From: a virus
Virus record (IMG/VR): IMGVR_UViG_3300025120_000158
Coordinates: 1 to 40,453 of that record
DNA length: 40,453 nt
Strand: one strand, 5' to 3'
In this document: piece by piece, positions 18,083-40,402 of the stretch
Position numbering within the stretch: position 1 is the stretch's first letter
Layout of the letters: each line of letters begins with the position of its first letter
Position numbers and translations under genes: made by a program
The notes under the pieces: model-generated
Told to the model about the DNA's origin: nothing
Seen by the model: only the letters and a program-made list of their open reading frames with translations
Database searches by the model: none

Positions 18083-18771
18083 TACAATTTTATTATATTG
18101 TTTGGTATTGATAGTAATTTATAAGTCTTTTCAGTAGCAACGCCAGTCACCAATAGATTTGATCTTGGTCCTTGTCCTGCGTTTGCTGTGCAGTGTGGAA
18201 CATTGTACCAGTCGAAAGTGTATATCTCACCTGCCTTGTATCCTGCAAGGAAATGATTCCCAAACTGCATGAAGTGGCCTGGTTGCCAATCTTCTAACAT
18301 CACAAAAAATCTATACACACTGTCGATGTCGTTGGGTGCCCATCTTTGCACAGCGTCTATGTGAGTAGTCCATACCTGTGTTGGCCACTGTACGTGGACA
18401 CGTGCTTGTATTTCACGTTCACCCGCTTTGAGATGCAACGAGTCTGCCATTTTCTGGAACACTGGCGACAGTTCGTAATCCATGTTGCCTATAGGATGTT
18501 TGGGATCGCCACCAACCCTCTCGATGTCTCTTTCCTCTGCCTCTATGTCTACGCTACTGCCTTGTTTGGTGTATTTGCTTTTGTCATCTGGGTTCCTAGT
18601 CCTCCATGTGACTTCCTTGCTTCTTTCTTGTGTCTGTGTCAACTCAGCACTCCAGTCTCCTTCGAACCTACCCACGTACCTCATGGTGTCGTGGGCAGGG
18701 TTATGATCGAAAGGATCGAAATGATAATTTGATCTTTTCTTTAGTGCGTCGTACTTGCTCTTGTTATTCAT
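18082..18771 (-). CDS. 2-oxoglutarate/Fe(II) dioxygenase, aspartyl-hydroxylase-like
   Basis: 229 residues from the ATG at 18771; a TTG two codons earlier is less likely. THIDAVQ gives the His137-x-Asp139 iron pair, WYNVPHCTANAG gives His193, and GPRSNLLVTG gives Arg203, which would hold 2-oxoglutarate. The core between (RFFVMLEDWQPGHFMQFGNHFLAGYKAGEIYTFDW) is a typical jelly-roll. These enzymes hydroxylate proteins or small molecules. A late-type box lies 6 bases before the start, inside the end of the transporter receptor gene. Confidence 0.82.
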   Translation of the reverse strand: MNNKSKYDALKKRSNYHFDPFDHNPAHDTMRYVGRFEGDWSAELTQTQERSKEVTWRTRNPDDKSKYTKQGSSVDIEAEERDIERVGGDPKHPIGNMDYELSPVFQKMADSLHLKAGEREIQARVHVQWPTQVWTTHIDAVQRWAPNDIDSVYRFFVMLEDWQPGHFMQFGNHFLAGYKAGEIYTFDWYNVPHCTANAGQGPRSNLLVTGVATEKTYKLLSIPNNIIKL

Positions 18772-19819
18772 TAACAATATTTATTTTGTACTCCACCTTG
18801 TGTCCTAAAGAATTTTTAGTGAAGTCTATCAGCGTCTTGTATGCTGATTCAGTAACCAATGACATCACGACATCTAAATGCCTGTTGCCATCTTCACCGA
18901 TAATCCATCCGTAATTGCCGATCTTTTTTTGTATTGCTTTGACGCTGTCAGGATTGCTGGCCACTTGTTCCAATGCATTCCTTAGGGTCTCTGCATGTTT
19001 GGATCCCTTGCTGATAAAGATCGCTTTCTGTATACCATCACGTATTGATTTGACCAACTTGTATGCATCGTAGAAGTCTCCACTAGGTGCGACGCCCCAT
19101 TTCTTTTCGAAAACTATCTCGAACTGGTATCCTGGAAAGTTTGGATCATCCTTGTGTTGTCCTGTTTCTGCATCAAGTATTCCATGATGGAACCATATCT
19201 CCGCCTTGCCTTCATCTATGACAGGTTTGATGTGTTTCTTGAATGCGGCAGGGTTCTCACGTGAACCTGTAGTTTCGCCCCTTTTGAAAGTAAGTCTGAA
19301 CTCGTTCTGTTTCATACCAGGCACCCAAGTCACCTTGTCCTTGAAACAAGACTTGTACTGTTCAACGTTCATGTCAGGTCCACACATAAGCATCGCAATG
19401 GCAAATGCCTCCGGTGCGTGTCCCAAGCCTTTTGGAAACACAGTTCCGTCTGTGCCGGTCCTCTTGGCGGCCACTATGTTCAAGTTCATTATTCCTATCG
19501 CATCGTAGTTGTAATCATAGACCACTTTAGGGTTGGTCAGGAACTTGATTGCGTTACCGCCACTTGTCGCCAACATCACTGTGTCGTCTTTTTGTAAATC
19601 CGTGTGCCAGTCGTTTGCACCTATGATGTTGCCTTTGCCTGGCAAGTGTTTCAATATTATCTCGCCGTCAATGTATTTGTTCATCTCGGTTGCGACTATC
19701 TGACTCCAGACACTCAACCCGCTACCAGGCTTGTTTGGCACAACCAATGTGTATTTTTCTGCCATTGTTGCTGTGGATAAACCTAACACCACCAACAATG
19801 AAATTATCATCTTCTTCAT
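18764..19819 (-). CDS. tctC: TctC/Bug-family periplasmic substrate-binding protein
   Basis: 351 residues with a signal peptide (MKKMIISLLVVLGLSTATMA, then EKYTLVVPNKPGSG). VPNKPGSGLSVWSQIVATEM and the following LKHLPGKGNIIGANDW correspond to the P-loop-like substrate contacts of tripartite tricarboxylate transporter receptors. The length is near the family norm (about 320) with an internal insert near 150-235 (GMKQNEFRLTFKRGETTG) that is unusual. It would capture a carboxylate in the periplasm and deliver it to TctA, which is encoded 15 bases upstream. A GGAG site precedes the ATG. The substrate is unknown. Confidence 0.82.
   Translation of the reverse strand: MKKMIISLLVVLGLSTATMAEKYTLVVPNKPGSGLSVWSQIVATEMNKYIDGEIILKHLPGKGNIIGANDWHTDLQKDDTVMLATSGGNAIKFLTNPKVVYDYNYDAIGIMNLNIVAAKRTGTDGTVFPKGLGHAPEAFAIAMLMCGPDMNVEQYKSCFKDKVTWVPGMKQNEFRLTFKRGETTGSRENPAAFKKHIKPVIDEGKAEIWFHHGILDAETGQHKDDPNFPGYQFEIVFEKKWGVAPSGDFYDAYKLVKSIRDGIQKAIFISKGSKHAETLRNALEQVASNPDSVKAIQKKIGNYGWIIGEDGNRHLDVVMSLVTESAYKTLIDFTKNSLGHKVEYKINIVNE
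18778..18785 (-). promoter_or_regulatory. T4-late-type promoter box (AATAAATA)
   Basis: The minus-strand box ends 6 bases before the ATG at 18771 and lies within the last codons of the TctC-like gene. There is no Shine-Dalgarno site between box and ATG. Confidence 0.55.
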
Positions 19820-19834
19820 ATTATCATTTTCTCC

Positions 19835-21274
19835 TTATGCATACTCAAGTTTGTTTTTTCTTGTTATTCCGTATACAAATAGACAAACCACAAATACCAG
19901 CAAGAGTATGAATAATGGTCTGTCAATTAGTCTGTCTATAGTATACAGGGAATTCAATTGCATTGTCAAGGCCTCAACCTTGCCAGCAAGTATAAATGCC
20001 ATCAGCATCGCTGGCCTGCTGAACTTGTATTTCTTGGCAAGTACACCAAGCACAGTGCAGAGTGCCAATACCACATAATCCTCAATGCCACCCGTGTGTT
20101 GCACACTGGCCCACACTATGAAAGCAACGATTATGGGAAAGTAATATTTGTATGGAACGTAAGTTATCATTGCGATATACTTGTTGAACACCAGACATAT
20201 TACACCAACGATCACAGTCGCCCACATGAAACCAAAAGTGAGGCTATTGAAAAATTTAGTGTCCTGTGCCAACTCGGGAGTGCCCAGTTCAAAACCAAGG
20301 TACATGAACAGAGCCATCAGTACCGCGGCGAAACTTGCACCAGGAATACCAAACAGTACAGTGGGTATCATGCTTGTGGCCTTCTGTGAGTTGTTAGCAC
20401 CCTCTGGTCCTATCACACCTCTTATATTGCCATTGCCAAACTTCTCAGTTGGGTTTGAAGCGACGGTGGCGCCATATGACATCCAGTCCGCCATTGCTCC
20501 GCCTATCCCTGGAAGTAGTCCAACGAACGCACCTATCCCTCCTCCTCGGAGTGCGTCCCACTTGCAACGCCAAACTTCTTTTATGCCAATTATTGTTTGT
20601 GCTGTGTCCTGATTCAGCCTCACTGTGGCTACCTGTCTGCCCCTACGCCATCCGTCAATGATTTCAGGGAAGGCAAACAAACCTGCCATGAAAGCAACCA
20701 TGGACACACCGTCACTCAGATAGTCCCATCCTAGCGTGAATCTATCTGCATTGGTGTCTGGGTGTACACCTATCAGTCCGATGAGTGTACCAATTACTAT
20801 TGCGATGATGCTACGGAACCAAAACTTGTTGCTTACGAATGCAACACAGGACAAACTCAACACAATGAACGCCCATAGTTCAGGCACACCAACAAACATT
20901 ATTACCTTGACATACCAAGGCAGTAGTGCAAATGTCAAAGTGCCCCATATCAATCCGTTCAACGTTGATGTCGTTATAGCGGCGGTGAGAGCAATGGTGG
21001 CCTTACCTTGTTTGGCCAATGGATGTCCGTCCACCATTGTTGCGGCCGCAGAATTGGCCCCAGGTATGCCCAAAAGCACACCACTAAAAGAATCACCAGT
21101 TGTGGATGAAGCGACAACTGCCACACAGAAGATAACTCCAAGATAAGGATCCATTCCCATAAAAAACGGAATGAATCCAAACAGTGCTATCAGTCCTGTT
21201 GTTGCTCCAGCGGCAGGTATAAGGCCAATGATTAAGCCATACACTACACCTGCGAGTAGTACAATTATTTCCAT
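19835..21274 (-). CDS. tctA: TctA-family large membrane subunit of tripartite tricarboxylate transporter
   Basis: 479 residues, essentially full family length, with about 11-12 membrane segments. IIGLIPAAGATTG, then GVLLGIPGANSAAATMVDGHPLAKQG and GIGAFVGLLPGIGGAMADWMSYG match the two conserved TctA repeats, and VLFGIPGASFAAVLMA is the second GIPG loop. It would carry substrate across the inner membrane using an ion gradient. A TctB-type small subunit is not encoded next to it on the same strand. The gene is intact with no frameshift. No convincing promoter was seen in 21275-21368. Confidence 0.9.
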   Translation of the reverse strand: MEIIVLLAGVVYGLIIGLIPAAGATTGLIALFGFIPFFMGMDPYLGVIFCVAVVASSTTGDSFSGVLLGIPGANSAAATMVDGHPLAKQGKATIALTAAITTSTLNGLIWGTLTFALLPWYVKVIMFVGVPELWAFIVLSLSCVAFVSNKFWFRSIIAIVIGTLIGLIGVHPDTNADRFTLGWDYLSDGVSMVAFMAGLFAFPEIIDGWRRGRQVATVRLNQDTAQTIIGIKEVWRCKWDALRGGGIGAFVGLLPGIGGAMADWMSYGATVASNPTEKFGNGNIRGVIGPEGANNSQKATSMIPTVLFGIPGASFAAVLMALFMYLGFELGTPELAQDTKFFNSLTFGFMWATVIVGVICLVFNKYIAMITYVPYKYYFPIIVAFIVWASVQHTGGIEDYVVLALCTVLGVLAKKYKFSRPAMLMAFILAGKVEALTMQLNSLYTIDRLIDRPLFILLLVFVVCLFVYGITRKNKLEYA

Positions 21275-30609: not shown

Positions 30610-30867
30610 TCATATGAACTTGCTTTCTAGATGGCTCAAGTGTTCTTGGCACCATTCTTTTATTTCGGATTTCATTGGTATGATCTCTGCTTCTCTGTAC
30701 CCAAAGCCGAAACAGATGTGTTGGAACCTGTCTGCGAACTTGTCCGGATCCATCAATGCGTCATCACCATATGGTGTACGACCGTCCAGGTATTCGCCTG
30801 ATATGTAGGAATCCTTCATCTCTTCGTATATCTCTTCTATTGATTTTGTCTGTAATCCTACGGTCAT
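30610..30867 (-). CDS. Unknown small acidic protein
   Basis: 85 residues (MTVGLQTKSIEEIYEEMKDSY...). The ATG overlaps the TAA of the upstream tagged gene (TAATG). No domain recognised, although FGFGYREAEIIPMKSEIKEW suggests a small alpha/beta fold. Confidence 0.6.
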   Translation of the reverse strand: MTVGLQTKSIEEIYEEMKDSYISGEYLDGRTPYGDDALMDPDKFADRFQHICFGFGYREAEIIPMKSEIKEWCQEHLSHLESKFI

Positions 30868-31133
30868 TATCTAACGATACCTTTCTGCATTATCTGATGA
30901 TGGTCCAAAGCATCTGCAACCACTTTAGGCTCTTCCGGTTTGTATTCCGAGATCTCGTAGTTGTGGATTTCTAGAACCTTCTTCATATTCTCCACAGCCT
31001 CTAATCTGTTAGTCCTTGTTGGGAAACTGTTATCCGATAGGTCCAACTTTATCTTGTTGAACAGATCTAATAATCTATCAACTTCTCTCGAAGTAAGGTG
31101 ATCTGTTAGATTGTATCTAAATTTATCTGCCAT
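30867..31133 (-). CDS. Small early protein with C-terminal tag VADALDHHQIMQKGIVR
   Basis: 88 residues from the ATG at 31133 (MADKFRYNLTDHLTSREV); the longer frame would run through the CAGGAGTTGAAT ribosome site. The first ~70 residues are helical and charged. The last 17 residues are identical to those of the gene at 39676, but 7 of the 17 codons differ synonymously. First gene of the minus early operon, with promoter at 31169-31196. Confidence 0.75.
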   Translation of the reverse strand: MADKFRYNLTDHLTSREVDRLLDLFNKIKLDLSDNSFPTRTNRLEAVENMKKVLEIHNYEISEYKPEEPKVVADALDHHQIMQKGIVR

Positions 31134-31168
31134 TTTATTCAACTCCTGTTTATTGTTAATCATAATTC

Positions 31169-31196
31169 ATTTTAGCACGGATCTCGATTGGGTCAA
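31169..31196 (-). promoter_or_regulatory. Early sigma70-type promoter, minus-strand member (TTGACC, 16 bp, TAAAAT)
   Basis: TTGACC (31196-31191) and TAAAAT (31174-31169), 16 bp apart, then GAATTATGA as in the plus-strand copies. Drives the 31133-29837 operon. Confidence 0.72.
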
Positions 31197-31311
31197 CCTG
31201 GTGATATTATATAATATAAAGCCGACTACGCCTAGTGCCACTCAGTGAGACCAACTACTGCATATAGTCTTTGGCAAAAAAACTCCCATTCTATGCGACT
31301 TCTACAGGAGG

Positions 31312-31339
31312 TTGACGGTATTACCATCCATGCTATACT
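31312..31339 (+). promoter_or_regulatory. Early sigma70-type promoter (TTGACG, 16 bp, TATACT)
   Basis: Same cassette as at 33456 and 38660, including the spacer element ATTACCATCCATG. It starts the plus early operon at 31375. Confidence 0.82.
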
Positions 31340-31374
31340 GAATTATGAAGCAATTAACAAAAGGAGTTGAACAA

Positions 31375-31656
31375 ATGAAGATAGACATACATAATGAAAT
31401 CTTTAAGATGAATGCTGATGAATTAGAATCAATAATGGCATCAGTAAAATTGAGAAGAAATCAATTACACTTTAAATCAGCCCACTCATTGAGAGTAGGT
31501 CAGAGAGTGTCATTCCAAGGCAGACACGGTATCACGGAAAAAGGTACTGTTGAAAAAATTAAGATCAAATATGTTCTAGTAAGAACTGACAGGGGTCAGA
31601 GATGGAATGTACCAGGATCACACCTAACTCAACTCAAGGAGGCAGTTAATGCCTAA
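31375..31656 (+). CDS. Small protein with SH3/KOW-like C-terminal domain
   Basis: 93 residues from the ATG at 31375. An upstream ATG in frame at 31345 is rejected because the AAAGGAG ribosome site lies between the two. VGQRVSFQGRHGITEKGTVEKIKIKYVLVRTD looks like a small beta-barrel (KOW/SH3-like), often nucleic-acid or protein binding. The N-terminal third is helical. First gene of the plus early operon. Confidence 0.65.
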   Translation: MKIDIHNEIFKMNADELESIMASVKLRRNQLHFKSAHSLRVGQRVSFQGRHGITEKGTVEKIKIKYVLVRTDRGQRWNVPGSHLTQLKEAVNA

Positions 31657-32275
31657 TTGGTGCGATAATCAGATCACTATCACAGCCGACAAGGCTGTGA
31701 TAGACAAGATAGAGAAGATTGTAAAAGACGAGGATGAAAAGAACGGACTTCTTAATTTTTTCCATCCGATGCCTAAAGAACTAGACGGCACGACGTCGCC
31801 CAGTTCATCAGCAGACAAGCCACAGCCGATGATCGAAGGCTTTGATTGTTGGTACGATTGGAGAGTGGAGAATTGGTGCACCAAATGGGAGGTGTGTGAG
31901 TTCTACGGTGTAGACAGACAAGATGACACCATATCATTTGGATTCAGTTCAGCCTGGGCACCACCGACTGGTGCTTATACTCGTTTCATAACAAGTATGG
32001 CGGAGAAGAACTTGGATGTGTCCTTGAAGGCGTACTACTACGAAGGTGGATGTGATTTCGCAGGATGTTGGGACAATGGAGATGATGAATGTATCGCCCC
32101 AAGCGATTACAAGTCAGACGATGATTACTGGAATGACGGACTGGGCTATGACCTGAACGAGATGTTCAACTTCTTGGAGTCCATGGCGGAGTACGAAGCA
32201 GAACAGGAAGCCGAGAAGGAAGACGTCCACGAGTATGTGAAAGGCAAAGCAATCAACATAGGGGAGGAAGTATAA
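31649..32275 (+). CDS. DUF1281/YubB-like protein (Api92-type ferredoxin-like fold)
   Basis: 208 residues. MPNWCDNQITITADKAVIDKI is the family opening (MPNWCxNxLTI), and ISFGFSSAWAPPTGAY is the central SFSTAWSPP-type motif. The C-terminus is very acidic. The family is common in phages and plasmids and its function is unknown. The ATG overlaps the previous stop by 8 bases. Confidence 0.8.
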   Translation: MPNWCDNQITITADKAVIDKIEKIVKDEDEKNGLLNFFHPMPKELDGTTSPSSSADKPQPMIEGFDCWYDWRVENWCTKWEVCEFYGVDRQDDTISFGFSSAWAPPTGAYTRFITSMAEKNLDVSLKAYYYEGGCDFAGCWDNGDDECIAPSDYKSDDDYWNDGLGYDLNEMFNFLESMAEYEAEQEAEKEDVHEYVKGKAINIGEEV

Positions 32276-32454
32276 TGAGTGACGTTAGACAAGCGACTGA
32301 CAAGATACTGGAGATGGTTGAAGAGGGTATCCTGGACAAGGATACGGTGATTATGTCGTGCCTGAAATATATGTCAGAGGATGACGTGGCGGACATGGCT
32401 CATTCCAATGAGTTTTTTATCAATGAGGAAGAACACGAAGAGGAGGACGAATAA
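32275..32454 (+). CDS. Small acidic protein conserved in marine T4-like phages
   Basis: 59 residues (MSDVRQATDKILEMVEEGILD...SCLKYMSEDDVADMAHSNEFF). The pattern MVEEGILD...CLKYMSEDDVxDM is one I associate with small proteins of marine T4-like phages. It overlaps both neighbours by one base (TAATG). Confidence 0.65.
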   Translation: MSDVRQATDKILEMVEEGILDKDTVIMSCLKYMSEDDVADMAHSNEFFINEEEHEEEDE

Positions 32455-32705
32455 TGTGGGAAGATGAATTATTTGACGAGATACAGAAGGGTGACAAGGT
32501 GTGGTACTGTGGAGCACCCGACGATGACACGGTACATGGACCAGTCAAAGCAATGATGATAGGACCTGCGGGTTGGGTCTGTGACAAGGGTGACGGACAA
32601 CCCATAGTGGTGAACGAGGGTTCGAACTACCTGGGACACACCGAGGGCAAGGACAGACAACCGGATCACTTTGGCCACTTCATGAACACCCATGGAGCCG
32701 ACTAG
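32454..32705 (+). CDS. Unknown small acidic protein
   Basis: 83 residues (MWEDELFDEIQKGDKVWYCG). Contains a hydrophilic beta-like centre (VKAMMIGPAGWVCDKGDGQPIVV) and a His-rich end. No family recognised; it is coupled to the previous gene through TAATG. Confidence 0.6.
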   Translation: MWEDELFDEIQKGDKVWYCGAPDDDTVHGPVKAMMIGPAGWVCDKGDGQPIVVNEGSNYLGHTEGKDRQPDHFGHFMNTHGAD

Positions 32706-33395
32706 ATGGCGACACTGAAACAGAAGAAGAAACTGATCGACACTATCAGGAACCCGATCAGATACTTCAGGCTGACTTTCGGACGATATGGCGGAGAGGT
32801 GGCCATGGGCAAGATTTCCGAGGAACAGTATGACTATTGGTCACAAAAGGACCAGTCAGAGTTCGAGGAGTACATGGTGTCCGTGGAGAGCGATCCAGAT
32901 GAGGCCAACAAGGATGTACCAGGCAATGCACAGTTTGACCATCCTTTCTACGAATACAACGACTTCTGCCAAGTGTCAGGACCGGAGTTCGCGAACGGAC
33001 AGACATTATACATAGAAGAATTGAACAAGGACGGTGAACCCCTGGACAACGGCGAGGGCGGGTATGTGGAAGACATCCAACATGACTTTGATGACCTCAC
33101 GTCGTTGGGGGTGGAGATCGACAACTCCGAGGTTTACAATTCAGGATCAAAGGCCTGTAAGGATTATTATTATGTTTTCGGACAGTATTTCAACAAGGGT
33201 AGTTGGCACACGCCAGACATCATCAAGACTGGATCAGATGGCATACTGATGGACAAGATGAAGATCTATCTAACAGATGCAGACGGATTCAAGGCGTTCA
33301 GTGATGTAGAATATGACGGTGAGTCCTACTCCCTGGAAGAGGATAGCACCGGTAAGAGTTCAAGTTTCTATGTGGGAGAGGGTGACGACGTCTAA
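32706..33395 (+). CDS. Unknown acidic protein
   Basis: 229 residues. A basic first 30 residues (LKQKKKLIDTIRNPIRYFR) precede a long acidic, Tyr- and Asp-rich body (SGSKACKDYYYVFGQYFNKG). Homology not recognised. It closes the first transcription segment before the promoter at 33456. Confidence 0.6.
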   Translation: MATLKQKKKLIDTIRNPIRYFRLTFGRYGGEVAMGKISEEQYDYWSQKDQSEFEEYMVSVESDPDEANKDVPGNAQFDHPFYEYNDFCQVSGPEFANGQTLYIEELNKDGEPLDNGEGGYVEDIQHDFDDLTSLGVEIDNSEVYNSGSKACKDYYYVFGQYFNKGSWHTPDIIKTGSDGILMDKMKIYLTDADGFKAFSDVEYDGESYSLEEDSTGKSSSFYVGEGDDV

Positions 33396-33451
33396 TGGCA
33401 CTATATGTTGTGTCGACCATAAGTTGTGGCACTAGATGTTGTGGTTTTTGG
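33396..33451 (+). repeat. 56-bp stem-loop element, forward copy
   Basis: Begins TGGCACTATATGTTGTG and ends in a GTTGTGG-T tract. The reverse complement of 35109-35164 matches it at about 43 of 56 positions. The hairpin GGCAC/GTGTC is kept with one G-T pair. It lies directly before the early promoter at 33456. Confidence 0.75.
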
Positions 33452-33455
33452 TAGG

Positions 33456-33483
33456 TTGACGCTATTACCATCCATGCTATACT
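33456..33483 (+). promoter_or_regulatory. Early sigma70-type promoter (TTGACG, 16 bp, TATACT)
   Basis: Identical to the 31312 copy at nearly all positions from -35 to a few bases past -10 (one spacer difference). It drives 33509 onward. Confidence 0.82.
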
Positions 33484-33508
33484 GAATTATAACAAAGGAG
33501 TTGAAAAT

Positions 33509-33910
33509 ATGTATAAAAGAGACCAACATTACAATGAGAAACTTTCTAAAGCAGATTTAGAAAAAGAACTATCTACCCATTACACAGGCGAAACAGGACT
33601 TGTTATTAATTTGATGAGTTATGCCATACAGGACGGCATCGTTGAAACTAGACATGAGTTGTCTTGTGCCAATGAAGAGCTTTGGAGCCTGAATGATTGG
33701 CCGGAAGGCGAAGGGTTTGGTAGTTCAGATAGATTTGAGTATGTGAGAAGAATTACAGAAACTGTCGCTTCAGAAAGAAAGTTCTTACAAGTAGAAGACG
33801 AGTTGGTTCAGATCAACAAATTGGATGAGTGTCCGAAGAACGACACGGTAAGAAAATACATGATCATGAATGAAGAAATTAGACAAGGCTTAACACAGGG
33901 AGGAAAATAA
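33509..33910 (+). CDS. Unknown small protein
   Basis: 133 residues (MYKRDQHYNEKLSKADLEKEL), helical and acidic with a strong AAAGGAGTTGAA ribosome site. No domain recognised. Its stop overlaps the next ATG. Confidence 0.62.
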   Translation: MYKRDQHYNEKLSKADLEKELSTHYTGETGLVINLMSYAIQDGIVETRHELSCANEELWSLNDWPEGEGFGSSDRFEYVRRITETVASERKFLQVEDELVQINKLDECPKNDTVRKYMIMNEEIRQGLTQGGK

Positions 33911-34449
33911 TGGCGACTAGAGCGAGGATAGGTATAAAACAGAAGAGCGGAAGAATAATTGCATCGTACCAACATTGGGACGGTTATCCTGGAGGACTTG
34001 GGTTCAACCTATGTGAGAATTGGGAAGACCCAAAGAAGGTCACAGAGGCGATCAAGTTGGGTGACAGTTCTAAATGGCACACGATCATAGGTGAGCAGAT
34101 AGACTTCGACGATAGGTCTAATCCAATGCACGAGGTCCAGAACTGTTATTATGGCAGAGACCGAGGTGAGAAGGGTTGTGGATACAAGGTCTACAAGGAC
34201 GAAGCAGAATACATCAAGAACGGATTCAGATCAGGAGAACAGTATGTGTACCTTATGAAGTTAGATAATGACAAGGACTACCTGGGCAATCCAAGGGGGA
34301 CTTGGTACTATGTGGAGAGCAGATACACAGATGCCGGCAAGGAAGTGATAGACGATGCTTTCAAACCTTTAGAAGAGGATGCCATCAAAGATCAGATAGA
34401 CATCCTGAACAGAACACTAGAAATGATCAAAGAAAGAAAGGCGGCCTAG
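33910..34449 (+). CDS. Conserved phage protein with MATRARIGIK opening
   Basis: 179 residues. MATRARIGIKQKSGRIIASYQHWDGYPGGLG is a well-known opening of an unnamed phage family. GCGYKVYKDEAEYIKNG and WYYVESRYTDAG follow. The function is unknown. Coupled to the previous gene by TAATG. Confidence 0.7.
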   Translation: MATRARIGIKQKSGRIIASYQHWDGYPGGLGFNLCENWEDPKKVTEAIKLGDSSKWHTIIGEQIDFDDRSNPMHEVQNCYYGRDRGEKGCGYKVYKDEAEYIKNGFRSGEQYVYLMKLDNDKDYLGNPRGTWYYVESRYTDAGKEVIDDAFKPLEEDAIKDQIDILNRTLEMIKERKAA

Positions 34450-34635
34450 ATGGTAAGGATTGATTGGAGATACCTCAAGGAGCGAGGTGACTACAAAGAC
34501 GACAATTCCAAGAACAGGGGATTCAGTCTTGTGGAAGTTGATACCAAATATGATATCAAGACGGTGCTGGAGGAGTTCTATGACAGCATGAACGAGCCAG
34601 TTCAAATTATTAACATTAGACAGGAAAGGATATAA
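34450..34635 (+). CDS. Unknown small protein
   Basis: 61 residues (MVRIDWRYLKERGDYKDDN). Directly follows the previous stop. No family recognised. Confidence 0.55.
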   Translation: MVRIDWRYLKERGDYKDDNSKNRGFSLVEVDTKYDIKTVLEEFYDSMNEPVQIINIRQERI

Positions 34636-34755
34636 GTGAGCCAAGTGAAAGCGGTAGGAGTATCATTCGTTGAAGGAATGGTGTTCGCTTCGTACACAGT
34701 TCTACCAGTGATTGGTATTATGTGGGCGACAGGAATAATCAGTTTAAACATATAA
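34636..34755 (+). CDS. 39-residue small membrane peptide with GTG start
   Basis: Starts with GTG directly after the previous TAA, with AAGGA six bases upstream. It contains a hydrophobic span (MVFASYTVLPVIGIMWATGI). The fit of ribosome site and spacing supports it, but it may be non-coding. Confidence 0.5.
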   Translation: MSQVKAVGVSFVEGMVFASYTVLPVIGIMWATGIISLNI

Positions 34756-34766
34756 GGAAAGATTGT

Positions 34767-35159
34767 ATGTCAAAGAAAGAAAAGATATGGACAATGGGGA
34801 ACAAGGGTCCGACAGGACCTTGGGTTTGGCACGCCTGGATCAAAGGTAGCAAGAAACCTTTAAGGGTGGTGGCCTTTGATGTGGATCACATCCGTTGCCA
34901 ACTAGAGGGCCGACAGGTGATCAAGGCCAAACGATTACCAGAGGAGAAGAATGAATTCTCATCCATGCCACTAGGACCAAAAGGATGTGTGGTGAACCAG
35001 CCAGCAGATTATGACAAAGGATTTAAGGTATTGAGGGAGTGGATAGATGAGAATGGTGGACCACCAGAAGAAATAAGGAAAAAATTAAGGGAATTATTCA
35101 TAGATTATGAAAAAACCACAACATATAGTCAAAAAAAGAACGGTCGGCACAAGATATAG
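34767..35159 (+). CDS. Unknown basic protein whose 3' end lies in the stem-loop element
   Basis: 130 residues from the ATG at 34767 (MSKKEKIWTMGNKG); the longer frame from 34722 would start inside the previous gene, and AAGGAAAG precedes this ATG. The last 17 or so codons (KTTTYSQKKNGRHKI) are encoded by the inverted 56-bp element. No family recognised. Confidence 0.6.
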   Translation: MSKKEKIWTMGNKGPTGPWVWHAWIKGSKKPLRVVAFDVDHIRCQLEGRQVIKAKRLPEEKNEFSSMPLGPKGCVVNQPADYDKGFKVLREWIDENGGPPEEIRKKLRELFIDYEKTTTYSQKKNGRHKI

Positions 35160-35164
35160 TGCCA
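35109..35164 (-). repeat. 56-bp stem-loop element, inverted copy
   Basis: Inverted relative to 33396-33451. It contains a perfect hairpin, GGCAC (35146-35150) with GTGCC (35159-35163), and a run of seven A. It overlaps the end of the 34767 gene and ends 8 bases before the early promoter at 35173. Confidence 0.75.
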
Positions 35165-35172
35165 TCCACCGG

Positions 35173-35200
35173 TTGACCCTATGGATATCCATGTTATATT
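35173..35200 (+). promoter_or_regulatory. Early sigma70-type promoter (TTGACC, 16 bp, TATATT)
   Basis: A more diverged copy of the cassette with CCATG retained before the -10. It drives 35225 onward. Confidence 0.72.
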
Positions 35201-35224
35201 AAAGAATAACAAAAGGAGTTGAAT

Positions 35225-35614
35225 ATGCAGAAAACAATAGAAGAAAACAAAGACCTACTTAAATTCAATGCAGAGGGAGTTCATCCAGCAGATCAGTTCT
35301 TGAATGCTAGGAAGAAGGCAGTCGAGGCTGTTGACCAATACATGATAGGCAAAGAAGAACCAATGTATTGTGGTTTCGCTAATGTTTCGATCCACCCTGC
35401 AAGAGGTAAATTTGTTTCGTTTATGAAAAAGGCGAGCATTGGAGACAGTGGTTTCAGAGGCGGATATAGAATATCTTATTATGATATAATGCCAACAGAT
35501 CACCAATATGCTAGAACACAGTCGATGGACATCAAAGAAATTGCCTGTGAGGCTTTCAGAGATGAACTGAAGAAATACGGTTTGACTGTATATGCAGAAA
35601 GCAGAGCAGACTAA
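35225..35614 (+). CDS. Unknown small protein
   Basis: 129 residues from the ATG at 35225 (MQKTIEENKDLLKFN) after AAAAGGAG; a TTG two codons earlier is part of the ribosome site. Contains CGFANVSIHPARGKFVSFMKKA, perhaps an alpha/beta fold. It is coupled to the lysin gene by TAATG. Confidence 0.62.
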   Translation: MQKTIEENKDLLKFNAEGVHPADQFLNARKKAVEAVDQYMIGKEEPMYCGFANVSIHPARGKFVSFMKKASIGDSGFRGGYRISYYDIMPTDHQYARTQSMDIKEIACEAFRDELKKYGLTVYAESRAD

Positions 35615-36201
35615 TGCAAGGAACATTAGAATTCGTTTTACAATCAGCGAGAGCCGTTATGGCCTCGCTGGCTTTGAGCTACGAGGTAGAGACCGGAGTG
35701 AGTGTGAACGAACATGAACTGAAGTGTATGGCAGAGAACATCTACTTCGAAGGTAGAGCAGAACCCATGATAGGCAAGATTGCGATAGGTCATGTGGTCA
35801 TGAACAGAATTGAAGATAAGAGATTTCCAGGAACCATATGTGATGTGGTACACCAAGGTCCTGTTAGGGAATCATGGAAGACAAAGAAGGATCCCACACT
35901 GGCAGACAAGGACAGAATTTACTATCCTAGAAAGCACAGATGCCAATTCAGTTGGTGGTGTGATGGACAGAAGGACATAATTTGGGCGACATACATGAGT
36001 GGTGAAGTGATACCAGAGAACATGACAGCCTGGAGAGACAGCATCCACGTCGCCCTATTCGTAATGAATGGTGACTACGGCAAGGATCCGTCGGACGGTG
36101 CGGTGTTCTACTACAACCCACACATCGCGAATCCTAATTGGGGCAAAATTTACAACCAAACGGCTATGATAGGCAATCATAGATTTATGAAGGACAAATA
36201 A
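35614..36201 (+). CDS. SleB-type cell-wall hydrolase (endolysin candidate)
   Basis: 195 residues. LKCMAENIYFEGRAEPMIGKIAIGHVVMNRI, FPGTICDVVHQGP and HRCQFSWWCDG match the Hydrolase_2/SleB family (ENxYFEARGE...VVxNR...FPxTVCxVVxQ...CQFSWxCDGK). Members cleave peptidoglycan glycan strands. The second Glu of YFEGRAEP is the likely catalytic acid. No clear signal peptide is present, so it would need a holin to reach the wall. A tiny membrane protein follows immediately. Its place in the early-type operon is unusual for a lysin. Confidence 0.82.
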   Translation: MQGTLEFVLQSARAVMASLALSYEVETGVSVNEHELKCMAENIYFEGRAEPMIGKIAIGHVVMNRIEDKRFPGTICDVVHQGPVRESWKTKKDPTLADKDRIYYPRKHRCQFSWWCDGQKDIIWATYMSGEVIPENMTAWRDSIHVALFVMNGDYGKDPSDGAVFYYNPHIANPNWGKIYNQTAMIGNHRFMKDK

Positions 36202-36202
36202 T

Positions 36203-36331
36203 ATGAAAAAGAAAAGAAACAAACTAGAAAGAAAATTAGACGAATACAATCACACAATGGAATTGGTAAGAACTATCCTACCGATTGCGATATTAGTGAT
36301 TCAAGTTATAATCTTAATGAAGGTGATATAA
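36203..36331 (+). CDS. 42-residue tail-anchored membrane protein next to the lysin
   Basis: MKKKRNKLERKLDEYNHTME (basic helix) is followed by one membrane segment (LVRTILPIAILVIQVIILMK). It starts 1 base after the lysin stop and ends 1 base before the ligase ATG. A holin or regulator role is possible but there is no family match. Confidence 0.55.
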   Translation: MKKKRNKLERKLDEYNHTMELVRTILPIAILVIQVIILMKVI

Positions 36332-36332
36332 T

Positions 36333-37619
36333 ATGCAACCATGGAAAGTGATACAAGAACTTGAATCGGATAACAGCCGATTGAAGAAAGAAGCAATCAT
36401 TAAAAGAGAGTCCGATGCGGATAACATCAGATTCTTCAACGGTGTAGGATCGGCTTTGGACAGTTTTAGAACATTCGGAGTCCAGAAGGTACCAGTATCC
36501 AAGCAGGACGGCACAGGCATCACACAGACGGAATTCGATGATGTTTTGAGACAGTTGGAGGACAGAACTCTTACAGGCAATGCCATGAAGGATGTGATCC
36601 AAGAATTGTGTGACAGAAGTAAGATGGAACAGTGGAATGATTGGTATCGTAGGATCCTGATCAAGGACCTGAGATGCGGAATGACCCACAAGACCGTGAA
36701 CAAGTTTTCTACAATGAAGGTTCCTGTGTTTGAATGTATGTTGGCCACAGACTCTGCCAAGCATGAGAAGAAAATGGTAGGAGAGATGCTTATAGAACCC
36801 AAACTAGACGGGGTTAGGGTGATTGTGATATGTGATGTGGACAAGGACGAAGTGAAACTGTTCTCAAGGAACGGTAAGGAGTTGTCTAACTTTCCAGAGA
36901 TCAATAAGCAGTTTGACGAGATGTTGGATCAGATGTCAGAGAGCATGGTGTTCGATGGTGAGGTAATGAGCGATGACTTCCAGACATTGATGAGAGAGAT
37001 ACACAGGAAGGGTGGAGCCAAGACCAAGGATGCCAAACTTAACCTTTTTGATTGTATGCCACTTTATAATTTCATGGACGGCAGTTGTGTCGAGCCTATC
37101 ACCGAGAGAAAGAAATGGTTAGACAAGTATGAGTTCGGACCAAATGTTAATGTGGTCGAGTCTGTGAAGATGAATTTAAGTGAACCTGATGGACAGAAGC
37201 AGTTCGCAGACTATAACAAGCTCTGCATAGACAGAGGATTCGAAGGAATCATGGTCAAGCCCGTAGGTGGCATCTATGAATGTAGGAGAAGTGTGGGATG
37301 GTTGAAGGTTAAGCCATTCATAGAAGTATCGTTGAAGGTCGTAGACGTGGAAGAGGGCACAGGCCGTAATGCAGGCAAACTAGGTGCTCTAGTCGTTGAA
37401 GGCACAGACATGGACAAGTTTATTAAAACAAATGTTGGATCAGGTCTCACAGACACTGACAGGGAAACATTTTGGAAGGCCAAGGACAAGTTGATTGGAC
37501 AGATAGTAGAAGTTAGGGCAGATGCCATAACACAGAACCAGGACACCACAAACGAGTGGAGCCTCAGGTTTCCAAGATTCCTAAGATTCAGAGGATTCGA
37601 ACCAGGAGAGAAGTTATAA
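36333..37619 (+). CDS. ATP-dependent DNA ligase (gp30-type)
   Basis: 428 residues. Motif I EPKLDGVRV (Lys157 is the adenylated lysine), motif III SMVFDGEV, motif IV FEGIMVKP, motif V GWLKVKPF and motif VI SLRFPRFLRF are all present, and the N-terminal ~150 residues form the helical DNA-binding region (LIKDLRCGMTHKTVNKF). The enzyme seals nicks in phage replication and repair. T4 gp30 is 487 residues, so this form is a little short. It lies in the early operon, as expected for replication. Confidence 0.93.
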   Translation: MQPWKVIQELESDNSRLKKEAIIKRESDADNIRFFNGVGSALDSFRTFGVQKVPVSKQDGTGITQTEFDDVLRQLEDRTLTGNAMKDVIQELCDRSKMEQWNDWYRRILIKDLRCGMTHKTVNKFSTMKVPVFECMLATDSAKHEKKMVGEMLIEPKLDGVRVIVICDVDKDEVKLFSRNGKELSNFPEINKQFDEMLDQMSESMVFDGEVMSDDFQTLMREIHRKGGAKTKDAKLNLFDCMPLYNFMDGSCVEPITERKKWLDKYEFGPNVNVVESVKMNLSEPDGQKQFADYNKLCIDRGFEGIMVKPVGGIYECRRSVGWLKVKPFIEVSLKVVDVEEGTGRNAGKLGALVVEGTDMDKFIKTNVGSGLTDTDRETFWKAKDKLIGQIVEVRADAITQNQDTTNEWSLRFPRFLRFRGFEPGEKL

Positions 37620-37831
37620 TGCAAAAGAAATACGAACATGGTTATGTGGAGGCAAAGACATCCGGAGGGGCAGTTTATGAACTTGGTGTTAAGACATCAA
37701 AGAATGCCAAAGCGATCAGAAGGATTGCGGAACCATTGATGGAGAAACACTGGCATGACAAGGTCACAAATTTACACAGAATTTATAGAGTTGCAGAATA
37801 TCTCTATAAAAGACAAAGGAGAAACAAATGA
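37619..37831 (+). CDS. Unknown small basic protein
   Basis: 70 residues from the ATG at 37619 (MQKKYEHGYVEAKTSGG), which overlaps the ligase stop (TAATG). The longer frame from 37556 lies inside the ligase. Basic (RIAEPLMEKHWHDKVTNLHR). Overlaps the next gene by 4 bases. Confidence 0.6.
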   Translation: MQKKYEHGYVEAKTSGGAVYELGVKTSKNAKAIRRIAEPLMEKHWHDKVTNLHRIYRVAEYLYKRQRRNK

Positions 37832-38046
37832 CAAATAAGATAAACTTGGTTATCAACCTATCCATATTGGCTCTGTTGATGTACCTAGCGGTATCTGTGA
37901 AGACACTCGAAGACAAAGTGTTTCCAGATCCTAACATAATGCAACCGGCAATGGGATATGATAATTCATTAGAAATGAAATACAATATCCAGGAACTGTT
38001 GAACAATGTTATAAAAGACGCAATCAACCAACAGGAGAATGATTAA
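37828..38046 (+). CDS. Small membrane-anchored protein
   Basis: 72 residues; an N-terminal segment (INLVINLSILALLMYLAVSV) is followed by a soluble acidic part. ATGA overlap with the previous gene and TAATG with the next. Confidence 0.58.
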   Translation: MTNKINLVINLSILALLMYLAVSVKTLEDKVFPDPNIMQPAMGYDNSLEMKYNIQELLNNVIKDAINQQEND

Positions 38047-38267
38047 TGGACGATCTAGATAGCATACTGACCAACATAGATCTTGAAGAAGAGAAGTTGG
38101 AGACAGAAGAGAAGGATTGGTATTGCAATGATTGTGAACACGGTCCTATGATGGACAGTGATACCAATTGTAGCAGATGTGGTGCCAAGCACAGTTCTCA
38201 TCATGAGGAAGAGATGACTGGTTGGGAAGACGAGGATATCGAATCAGAGGTGGAGGAGATATGGTAG
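38046..38267 (+). CDS. Zinc-ribbon-like small acidic protein
   Basis: 73 residues. WYCNDCEHGPMMDSDTNCSRCGAK has two CxxC pairs typical of a zinc ribbon. The rest is Glu-rich. The role may be protein or nucleic-acid contact. Confidence 0.65.
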   Translation: MDDLDSILTNIDLEEEKLETEEKDWYCNDCEHGPMMDSDTNCSRCGAKHSSHHEEEMTGWEDEDIESEVEEIW

Positions 38268-38467
38268 AGTACAGTAGCCACGACTGGAGAAAGAACACAG
38301 ACGACGCTGTCGTGATGGACGAGCACGGAACTATCGTTAGATCGGTCAATGACCTGAAGGTGAAGTTCACTGATCCAAATAGTCTGAAGGTGCAAGAAGT
38401 TGATGTGTCTAGACTGATCAGGGTGTTCTGTAATAATCAAACCCTAATGAGAAAGAGTATAAAATGA
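38261..38467 (+). CDS. Unknown small protein
   Basis: 68 residues from the ATG at 38261 (MVEYSSHDWRKNTDD), with GGAGGAGAT before it and a 7-base overlap with the previous gene. No family recognised. Confidence 0.58.
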   Translation: MVEYSSHDWRKNTDDAVVMDEHGTIVRSVNDLKVKFTDPNSLKVQEVDVSRLIRVFCNNQTLMRKSIK

Positions 38468-38640
38468 TTGGAACAATGACACAAGACACCAAGGACAGGA
38501 TAGCAGAGATGGAACGACAGAAGATTGATCTAGAGAATCAATTGGAGATGTTAGGATACTCGGGCAATTTGGTAAGAATGCACCAAATCGAGGAGGAAAT
38601 CTACGAGATAGAGGATACCATCTGTAAATTACTTCCATAG
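38464..38640 (+). CDS. Unknown small coiled-coil protein
   Basis: 58 residues (MIGTMTQDTKDRIAEMERQK), helical with heptads (IDLENQLEMLGYSGNLVRM). It overlaps the previous gene by 4 bases. Its stop codon lies inside the terminator hairpin that follows. Confidence 0.58.
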   Translation: MIGTMTQDTKDRIAEMERQKIDLENQLEMLGYSGNLVRMHQIEEEIYEIEDTICKLLP

Positions 38641-38653
38641 AATGGGAGTTTTT
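38631..38653 (+). terminator. Rho-independent terminator just before an early promoter
   Basis: ACTTCCA (38631-38637) pairs with TGGGAGT (38643-38649) with one T-G pair, then TTTT. The hairpin lies 6 bases upstream of the -35 of the 38660 promoter, like the stem-loop/promoter cassettes known in T4-type phages. Confidence 0.65.
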
Positions 38654-38659
38654 AGGTGG

Positions 38660-38687
38660 TTGACGCTATTACCATCCATGTTATACT
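38660..38687 (+). promoter_or_regulatory. Early sigma70-type promoter (TTGACG, 16 bp, TATACT)
   Basis: Same cassette as at 31312 and 33456, with only one spacer base different from the 33456 copy. It drives 38720 onward. Confidence 0.82.
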
Positions 38688-38719
38688 GAAGTATAACCAT
38701 TAAACAAAAGGAGTTGAAA

Positions 38720-39169
38720 ATGGATACAATTAATACAAAAAAGATATTAGACTTTACAAAATTGACAGGTCTAACAGAAAGAATTACTATGAGTCATGGC
38801 ACTTTGTATGTGACTCTACACCAACCAGAAAGATGTGATTTCTTCCATGGAATCATTAGAACATTTTACAAGGATAATATCAACACAGACGGTGGCGTGA
38901 ATATGTATGCCGTAGGTGATGAGTTCGCTTTTGATTTTGTACCACAAGACAGAGAAGCACCTGTGTTCTCAGACGAGGACTACTCGGGCAAGGAGGACAT
39001 GATGCCGAGTGATGTTGACAAGGGCATTTGGTCAGAGTTCGCAGAAGATGAAATGTTTGACAACATGGATGACGAGGACGAGAGTCCGGCGTTTCCGTCT
39101 TACTACGAGGTACCGGCAGATGTTGACACGGCCTTAGACCTAGAAGCAGATGCAAAGGAGGGCAGATAA
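38720..39169 (+). CDS. Unknown acidic protein
   Basis: 149 residues from the ATG at 38720 (MDTINTKKILDFTKLTG); a TTG six bases upstream belongs to the ribosome site. The N-terminal half is alpha/beta (LYVTLHQPERCDFFHGII); the C-terminal half is highly acidic, as in DNA-mimic-like phage proteins. Function unknown. Confidence 0.62.
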   Translation: MDTINTKKILDFTKLTGLTERITMSHGTLYVTLHQPERCDFFHGIIRTFYKDNINTDGGVNMYAVGDEFAFDFVPQDREAPVFSDEDYSGKEDMMPSDVDKGIWSEFAEDEMFDNMDDEDESPAFPSYYEVPADVDTALDLEADAKEGR

Positions 39170-39170
39170 C

Positions 39171-39455
39171 ATGACAAGAAATAGTTGGATCGTGAAACAG
39201 ATCTACACAGATGCAAAGAACAATCTAGGTTGGTTGTTCAAAGGCATACTGTTGGCAGGTGGTTTCATAGCAGGAATCAAGATACTGATGTTCTTCAGTG
39301 TACCAAAGGAGATATTGTTTCCGGTGATGTGGATAGCATTCATATTGGTGATGCTCTACAAATGGTACTCGATGAAGTATGATTGGAAGAACGATGACAA
39401 GGCGTACGACAGAGCGTCTAAAAGATACATGAAAAAACTAAAGGGAGGAAAATAA
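39171..39455 (+). CDS. Small membrane protein, two TM segments
   Basis: 94 residues from the ATG at 39171 (MTRNSWIVKQIYTDAKN). Two hydrophobic spans (FKGILLAGGFIAGIKILMFF and ILFPVMWIAFILVMLYKW) and a basic tail. The GGAG site lies before the ATG. Confidence 0.6.
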   Translation: MTRNSWIVKQIYTDAKNNLGWLFKGILLAGGFIAGIKILMFFSVPKEILFPVMWIAFILVMLYKWYSMKYDWKNDDKAYDRASKRYMKKLKGGK

Positions 39456-39676
39456 TGAAATCAGAATACGAAGAAATAAAAGCGATATTGATCAAGCACG
39501 ATGTCACAGACCTAGACCAGATAGAGTATGGTTCAGATGTGTATGAAGACCTTTTTGAGTATTACATGAGCTCGGGCGAGATGCCATATGGTATCATGAA
39601 GGCCAGAACAGGTGATCCAGATGTTTGGATCGTGGACAGAGTTTTTGAAATGGGATTAATCAAGGAGGAGGCGTAA
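39455..39676 (+). CDS. Unknown small acidic protein
   Basis: 73 residues (MKSEYEEIKAILIKHDVTDLD), helical and acidic. Coupled to both neighbours by TAATG overlaps. No family recognised. Confidence 0.58.
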   Translation: MKSEYEEIKAILIKHDVTDLDQIEYGSDVYEDLFEYYMSSGEMPYGIMKARTGDPDVWIVDRVFEMGLIKEEA

Positions 39677-39876
39677 TGACAGTAGACATAAACGGACTAT
39701 CGACCAAGCTCGAAGTCCTTACATCAATCAAGGAGAACATCCAAGATGGTGACACGGACACAGCCATAGACATGGTCAATCAGATGATTGAATTAGAACC
39801 GGCACCAGGACAGAGAAGACCTGTCGCGGATGCACTGGACCACCATCAGATAATGCAGAAAGGAATCGTAAGATAA
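39676..39876 (+). CDS. Small protein with C-terminal tag VADALDHHQIMQKGIVR
   Basis: 66 residues. The first ~45 are helical (LSTKLEVLTSIKENIQDGDTD). The last 17 residues are identical to those of the 30867 gene on the other strand, while the rest is unrelated. Seven of 17 codons differ, all synonymous. The stop overlaps the next ATG as in the other copy. Confidence 0.75.
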   Translation: MTVDINGLSTKLEVLTSIKENIQDGDTDTAIDMVNQMIELEPAPGQRRPVADALDHHQIMQKGIVR

Positions 39877-40112: not shown

Positions 40113-40402
40113 TGATATCCAGAGCGATAGCATCAAACGGACTACCACTCAAGATACAGACCGAATGGACAGACAACGACTATTGGGAGAGGATAGACCC
40201 AGAGTATGATGATCTGAAGTGTGTGAATGTCGCAGGTTGGCTTGTACGGATCAATGGTAAGAAATTTCCAAGGGGTCATTTCGACGGAGATGATACCCCA
40301 GATTGGACCTACAGGTACACACCAGGTGAAGGGCAGACAGAGGCAGGCAGAAGGATCGCCATAGAAAGAGCATTGGGAGAGGCCAGGTTGACGGTTTGGT
40401 AA
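40112..40402 (+). CDS. Unknown small protein
   Basis: 96 residues (MISRAIASNGLPLKIQTEWTD), alpha/beta with Trp- and Tyr-rich centre. Its end overlaps the promoter at 40388. No family recognised. Confidence 0.58.
   Translation: MISRAIASNGLPLKIQTEWTDNDYWERIDPEYDDLKCVNVAGWLVRINGKKFPRGHFDGDDTPDWTYRYTPGEGQTEAGRRIAIERALGEARLTVW

Follow-up and report, generated by a model that had tools for sequence, protein, structure and literature searches.

The stretch of DNA analysed here (the window) is an entire virus record of 40,453 bases, in which scans of the window proteins also identify tail-spike, exonuclease, cell-wall hydrolase and ATP-dependent DNA ligase genes. Two small genes on opposite strands, termed A and B (Table 1), end in the same 17 residues, VADALDHHQIMQKGIVR, identical at 17 of 17 positions, and a third copy is absent from the whole record. 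The mechanical open reading frame of gene A begins at 31163, while the start adopted here (MADKFRY...) is backed by the ribosome-binding cassette GGAGTTGAA, common to other operon starts. Elsewhere, the window (19835-21274 and 18764-19819 (-)) holds a phage-borne TctA transporter gene (Pfam TctA, E = 1.6e-96) and a neighbouring secreted-looking protein with no family match.

Table 1. Genes, tags and promoter cassettes of the tag region (window coordinates).
Feature	Position	Strand	Remarks
Tag type I (VADALDHHQIMQKGIVR), C-terminus of gene A	30870..30920	-	Read from the window sequence
Tag type I, C-terminus of gene B	39823..39873	+	Same 17 residues; 7 synonymous codon differences from the gene A copy
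Gene A	30867..31133	-	Body (helical), linker of varying length and tag; 19 relatives retain the body, with a type I tail, a type II tail or neither
Gene B	39676..39876	+	Profile comparison shows no relation of the body to that of A; tails of homologues differ
Gene C	39455..39676	+	Untagged in the window; in record G007 its homologue bears a terminal type I tag
Gene E	38720..39169	+	Normal tail is type III, shared with the gene B homologues of L107-L110, L114 and G020
Promoter and ribosome-binding cassette in front of gene A	31128..31206	-	GGTTGAC, extended -10, GGAGTTGAA
Cassette of the same kind, ahead of the operon through genes E, C and B	38652..38725	+	Same elements

At the DNA level the two copies of the tag differ in 7 of 17 codons, all synonymously; counted by sites, 7.0 of the 10.3 synonymous ones have changed and none of the 40.7 nonsynonymous ones (Fisher p about 1e-6). 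The sequence-only reading of this DNA, from which the shared C-terminus and the codon count were already known, had concluded that the copies are not recent and that selection acts on the tag as protein, and our recount of the sites bears out both conclusions. The window copies also agree at positions 1 and 9 (V1, Q9), which are variable between genomes, and this agreement despite the diverged codons fits one partner shared within the same phage. The TAATG overlap reported at both stops is indeed there, but it is not a special feature of the tagged genes, since 11 of the 29 same-strand neighbour pairs in a hand-made gene list of the tag region have the same 1-nt overlap.

Upstream of the tag the proteins look unrelated. 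Tail-less body profiles, which are shallow and hold few effective sequences, gave hhalign probabilities of 1.4 % for A-B, 1.5 % for A-C and 0.2 % for B-C, and single-sequence shuffle tests revealed no strong pair, A-B being the closest with 32 of 500 shuffles scoring as high. A fourth carrier of the tag, protein D from a related record, was compared with the other bodies by shuffles only. The earlier claim of unrelated upstream parts, which similarity far upstream would have overturned, thus survives both kinds of comparison, and we treat the bodies of A, B and C as unrelated, with A-B the least certain pair. Could A and B nevertheless be remote members of one ordinary family, the tail being its best-kept part? 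The weak A-B alignment would allow this, but the hhalign values for all three pairs, the confident model that gene C has of its own (below) and the existence of untagged homologues of A, B and C make it very unlikely; homology outside the tail, the mark of a paralogue family, was found neither by hhalign among A, B and C nor by shuffles for D.

The bodies themselves resemble little that has been described. The predicted model of gene A (22 sequences) is poor, with a pLDDT of 62.7, helices that include residues 25-42 and 53-66, and a short low-confidence helix at residues 86-93 within the tag, whereas gene C yields a confident, small, helical model (pLDDT 92.8). Fold searches with these two models returned no match with E below 4, the PDB held nothing significant for the gene A or gene C profiles, and nothing significant was found in Pfam or PHROGs for gene A or gene B. 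Peptides of tag plus linker had no PDB match and a single Pfam match (E = 0.21). In cultured phages gene B, gene C and gene E have no match and gene A has chance-level matches only. The gene C domain is also found inside large phage proteins, and in one of these (L145) the N-terminal part gave a virion-structural match, which points only slightly towards the virion. These large mosaic proteins (L120-L166, e.g. L130:2257-5229 and L133:4501-6708) contain the domain as EMPYGVxKARTGDPxEW, and several of them terminate alike, in RLKxLAG or RLKxLSG, which may represent a further shared tail. Gene B too has a counterpart in larger proteins, its domain lying within a protein of about 915 residues in L111-L113; the 915-residue protein at L111:118-2862 shows a weak match to the RNA-polymerase-binding protein SutA (E = 6e-5, below Pfam's cut-off).

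A search of IMG/VR with gene A recovered 19 loci, in all of which the body is kept, while the tail is of the window type (type I) in nine, of a second type (type II) in five and of neither type in five. Across these relatives gene A has a conserved body, a variable linker and a conserved tail. Type I follows the pattern DAxDxHxIMxKGIV and ends in GIVR or GIVK; type II follows DAxDxHxIxxNxNKATGG (..DARDQHLI..N.NKATGG[KR]), ends in TGGK or TGGR, and has the core DAxDxHxI in common with type I. The window together with 20 related records provided 16,800 stop-to-stop frames, in which 13 matches to a tag-I score matrix reached 85-90, followed by five type II tags at 41-49, with noise at 35 or below. 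A degenerate scan of IMG/VR for the type I core found 12 contigs, and the corresponding type II scan eight; the motif forms the extreme C-terminus of a small frame in 12 of 12 and the end of gene A in 8 of 8, so that the terminal position attributed to the tag from the window holds throughout. The type I carriers were gene A in ten contigs (one of them, L070, a partial copy cut by the contig edge and assigned from its linker and next gene), a gene C homologue in one (G007) and the unrelated protein D in one (G012). In the GTDB contigs the type I pattern had one match, on a 7,318-base phage-like contig (L086) binned with an uncultured Pelagibacter MAG, a weak hint at Pelagibacter as the host. 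A relaxed scan gave 13 stretches, two of them new: for one (L087) no open frame containing the motif was found, and the other (L088:3548-3580) has FSDAQDYHTIM, near the tag core, at an internal position 75 residues short of the end of an unrelated frame, probably by chance; the frame is similar to a microvirus scaffold protein. Literature searches brought up no description of the tag.

The tag is thus found on four kinds of body, A, B, C and D, and is missing from some homologues of A, B and C. Two of the five records in which gene A is untagged carry the tag on another gene, on C in G007 and on D in G012; no tag was seen in the other three (G015, G018 and G019), but these records are fragments, and the exclusive pattern of a tag either on A or elsewhere rests on two records. 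The presence of two tagged proteins in one genome holds for the window but does not extend beyond it, as a second carrier was not seen in any of the 14 relatives whose gene A is tagged. In both G007 and G012 the gene that follows the tag is of the same family (KEPNPPF) although the upstream bodies differ, while genes A and B precede other genes; it follows that the tag and the following gene can stay together at one place, and that the tag is not tied to one neighbour.

Comparison across carriers shows synonymous sites near saturation with the protein kept. Between the window copy on gene B and the gene A copy of G002, 10.0 of the 10.3 synonymous sites differ and none of the 40.7 nonsynonymous sites, and between the G007 copy on C and the G012 copy on D the figures are 9.0 of 9.3 and 5 of 41.7; the constraint is weaker between window gene B and G012 D (6.5 of 10.0 synonymous against 7.5 of 41.0 nonsynonymous). 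In all 15 tags compared, two of which (G006 and L086) are identical in tag DNA, the lysine preceding GIV is encoded by AAA, a codon that forms part of an AAAGG stretch ahead of the overlapping start, so that an RNA constraint on the last codons of the tag is likely.

Tag I is absent from every gene B homologue outside the window, and these homologues have other tails. A third type ends the homologues in five similar loci (L107-L110 and L114) and in L117, which is G020, and is also how gene E, which the window contains, normally ends; a fourth ends those in G022 and G024; L118 has none. Type IV is common to gene B and an unrelated 104-residue protein of the same genomes, which are two near-identical records. 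In a tail-against-tail search of 1,809 gene-like ORFs the type III pair scored 38.4 bits and the type IV pair 35.4 bits, both just above the best chance pair of 34.6 bits in 20 runs of a shuffled control. The case for type III is strengthened by the agreement of the L107 gene B tail with gene E of G012 at 14 of 19 residues (hand count), and type III is likely to be a real shared tail; type IV can be proposed as one tentatively.

In relatives the tail appears on other proteins or is replaced by a variant, so that it has the look of a reusable address label and does not seem to belong to a single protein family. Its anatomy is that of a docking or targeting tag: a conserved terminal peptide joined through a variable linker to a body, with different bodies in use and a variant built on the same core. 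We consider it probable that the 17-residue tail is a modular C-terminal tag of this kind, which would bring different bodies to one shared partner. Small unrelated phage proteins would then be built from a body, a linker that varies in length and, at the end, a short conserved peptide containing the D-A-x-D-x-H-x-I core; the peptide would bind one shared putative partner, and therefore whichever bodies carry it would be delivered to the same place. We infer that the tag works through binding to a partner, that its types I and II would be equivalent and that the putative partner would be phage-encoded; the single host target suggested in the sequence-only reading is only one option. Loading of small proteins into the procapsid, as for the T4 internal proteins, is the most specific version of this proposal and a rather unlikely one. 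It is also conceivable, though we advance it with reserve, that this uncultured marine phage group uses interchangeable C-terminal address tags (I, II and possibly III and IV), each recruiting diverse small bodies to a shared partner, with the tag and not the body being kept by selection. If the tag does dock many bodies to one place it offers a handle for pulling out the partner together with a group of cooperating, unannotated small phage proteins, and shared terminal tails on otherwise unrelated proteins would be a simple way to find more such sets.

Other readings account for part of these data. The tail might itself be the active peptide, such as an inhibitor of a single enzyme of host or phage, with bodies that only stabilise or express it. 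Retention of the tail while bodies vary would suit such a peptide; however, a free-standing copy of the tail was not found, and the gene A body is strongly conserved even without the tail, so the bodies must have a role of their own, which renders this reading unlikely. The repeated occurrence of the tag before the same downstream gene in G007 and G012, behind different bodies, could instead reflect recombination, with mosaic junctions near gene ends, a tail carried along with the following gene's ribosome-binding site, and a motif that marks points of exchange and not function. The AAAGG in the tag can serve an overlapping next start, and loss of the B body beside C would yield a tagged C. 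Such a relic is nonetheless quite improbable, as A, B and C/D have different downstream genes and 17 residues have been preserved despite near-saturated synonymous sites.

The overlap of the stop with the next start and the AAA codon found in all 15 tags might be taken further, to a wholly RNA-level element acting as ribosome-binding site or coupling signal for the next gene, but most tag codons vary synonymously and the many untagged neighbour pairs that overlap likewise leave this reading with hardly any likelihood. SsrA tags end in LAA, and degrons of this kind have a non-polar C-terminal end recognised by a protease. The terminal position, the portability and the small size of the carriers are what a degradation signal that makes several small early proteins short-lived would show; the tags compared here end in GIVR, GIVK, TGGK or TGGR, unlike SsrA, and 17 conserved residues are long for such a signal, so that we regard it as highly improbable. 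The degradation, recombination and RNA-level readings are all weaker than that of a docking or targeting tag.

The T4 capsid targeting sequence (CTS) is N-terminal and is cut off at maturation by the prohead protease. The T4-type internal proteins that bear it are highly diverse small phage proteins sharing only a targeting tag (PMC3012670), and in this they are like the carriers described here. The present tag differs in being at the extreme C-terminus, as in the 12 type I contigs, and in having a different sequence. Encapsulin cargo-loading peptides are likewise short conserved C-terminal peptides on different cargo proteins (PMC7355545), but they are of about 10 residues and are found next to a shell gene, against 17 residues here. 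A short conserved peptide at the terminus of unrelated proteins is what the window presents too; no encapsulin shell gene was seen among the subset of window proteins scanned. Because the T4 tag is N-terminal and the encapsulin likeness is confined to the peptide, we assign the tag to neither system. Domain mosaicism, as outlined in PMC10684548, also has otherwise unrelated phage proteins sharing a homologous fragment, but the units there are domains, in tail fibres, endolysins and replication proteins, and here a 17-residue terminal peptide with alternative forms. The nearest precedents that the tag resembles are the T4 internal proteins in logic, among phages, and encapsulin cargo in position, with no evidence of homology to either.

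Joint expression of gene A and the gene B operon is plausible from the cassettes that precede them, and early expression is plausible from their sigma70-like character. The stretch upstream of gene A in G001 has the cassette as well (by eye). Copies of it, with GGTTGAC, an extended -10 and GGAGTTGAA, lie in the window at 31312, 33456, 35173 and 38660 (+), at 31196 (-) and, in part, at 40388, and the repeated cassette may drive the operons of this region together.
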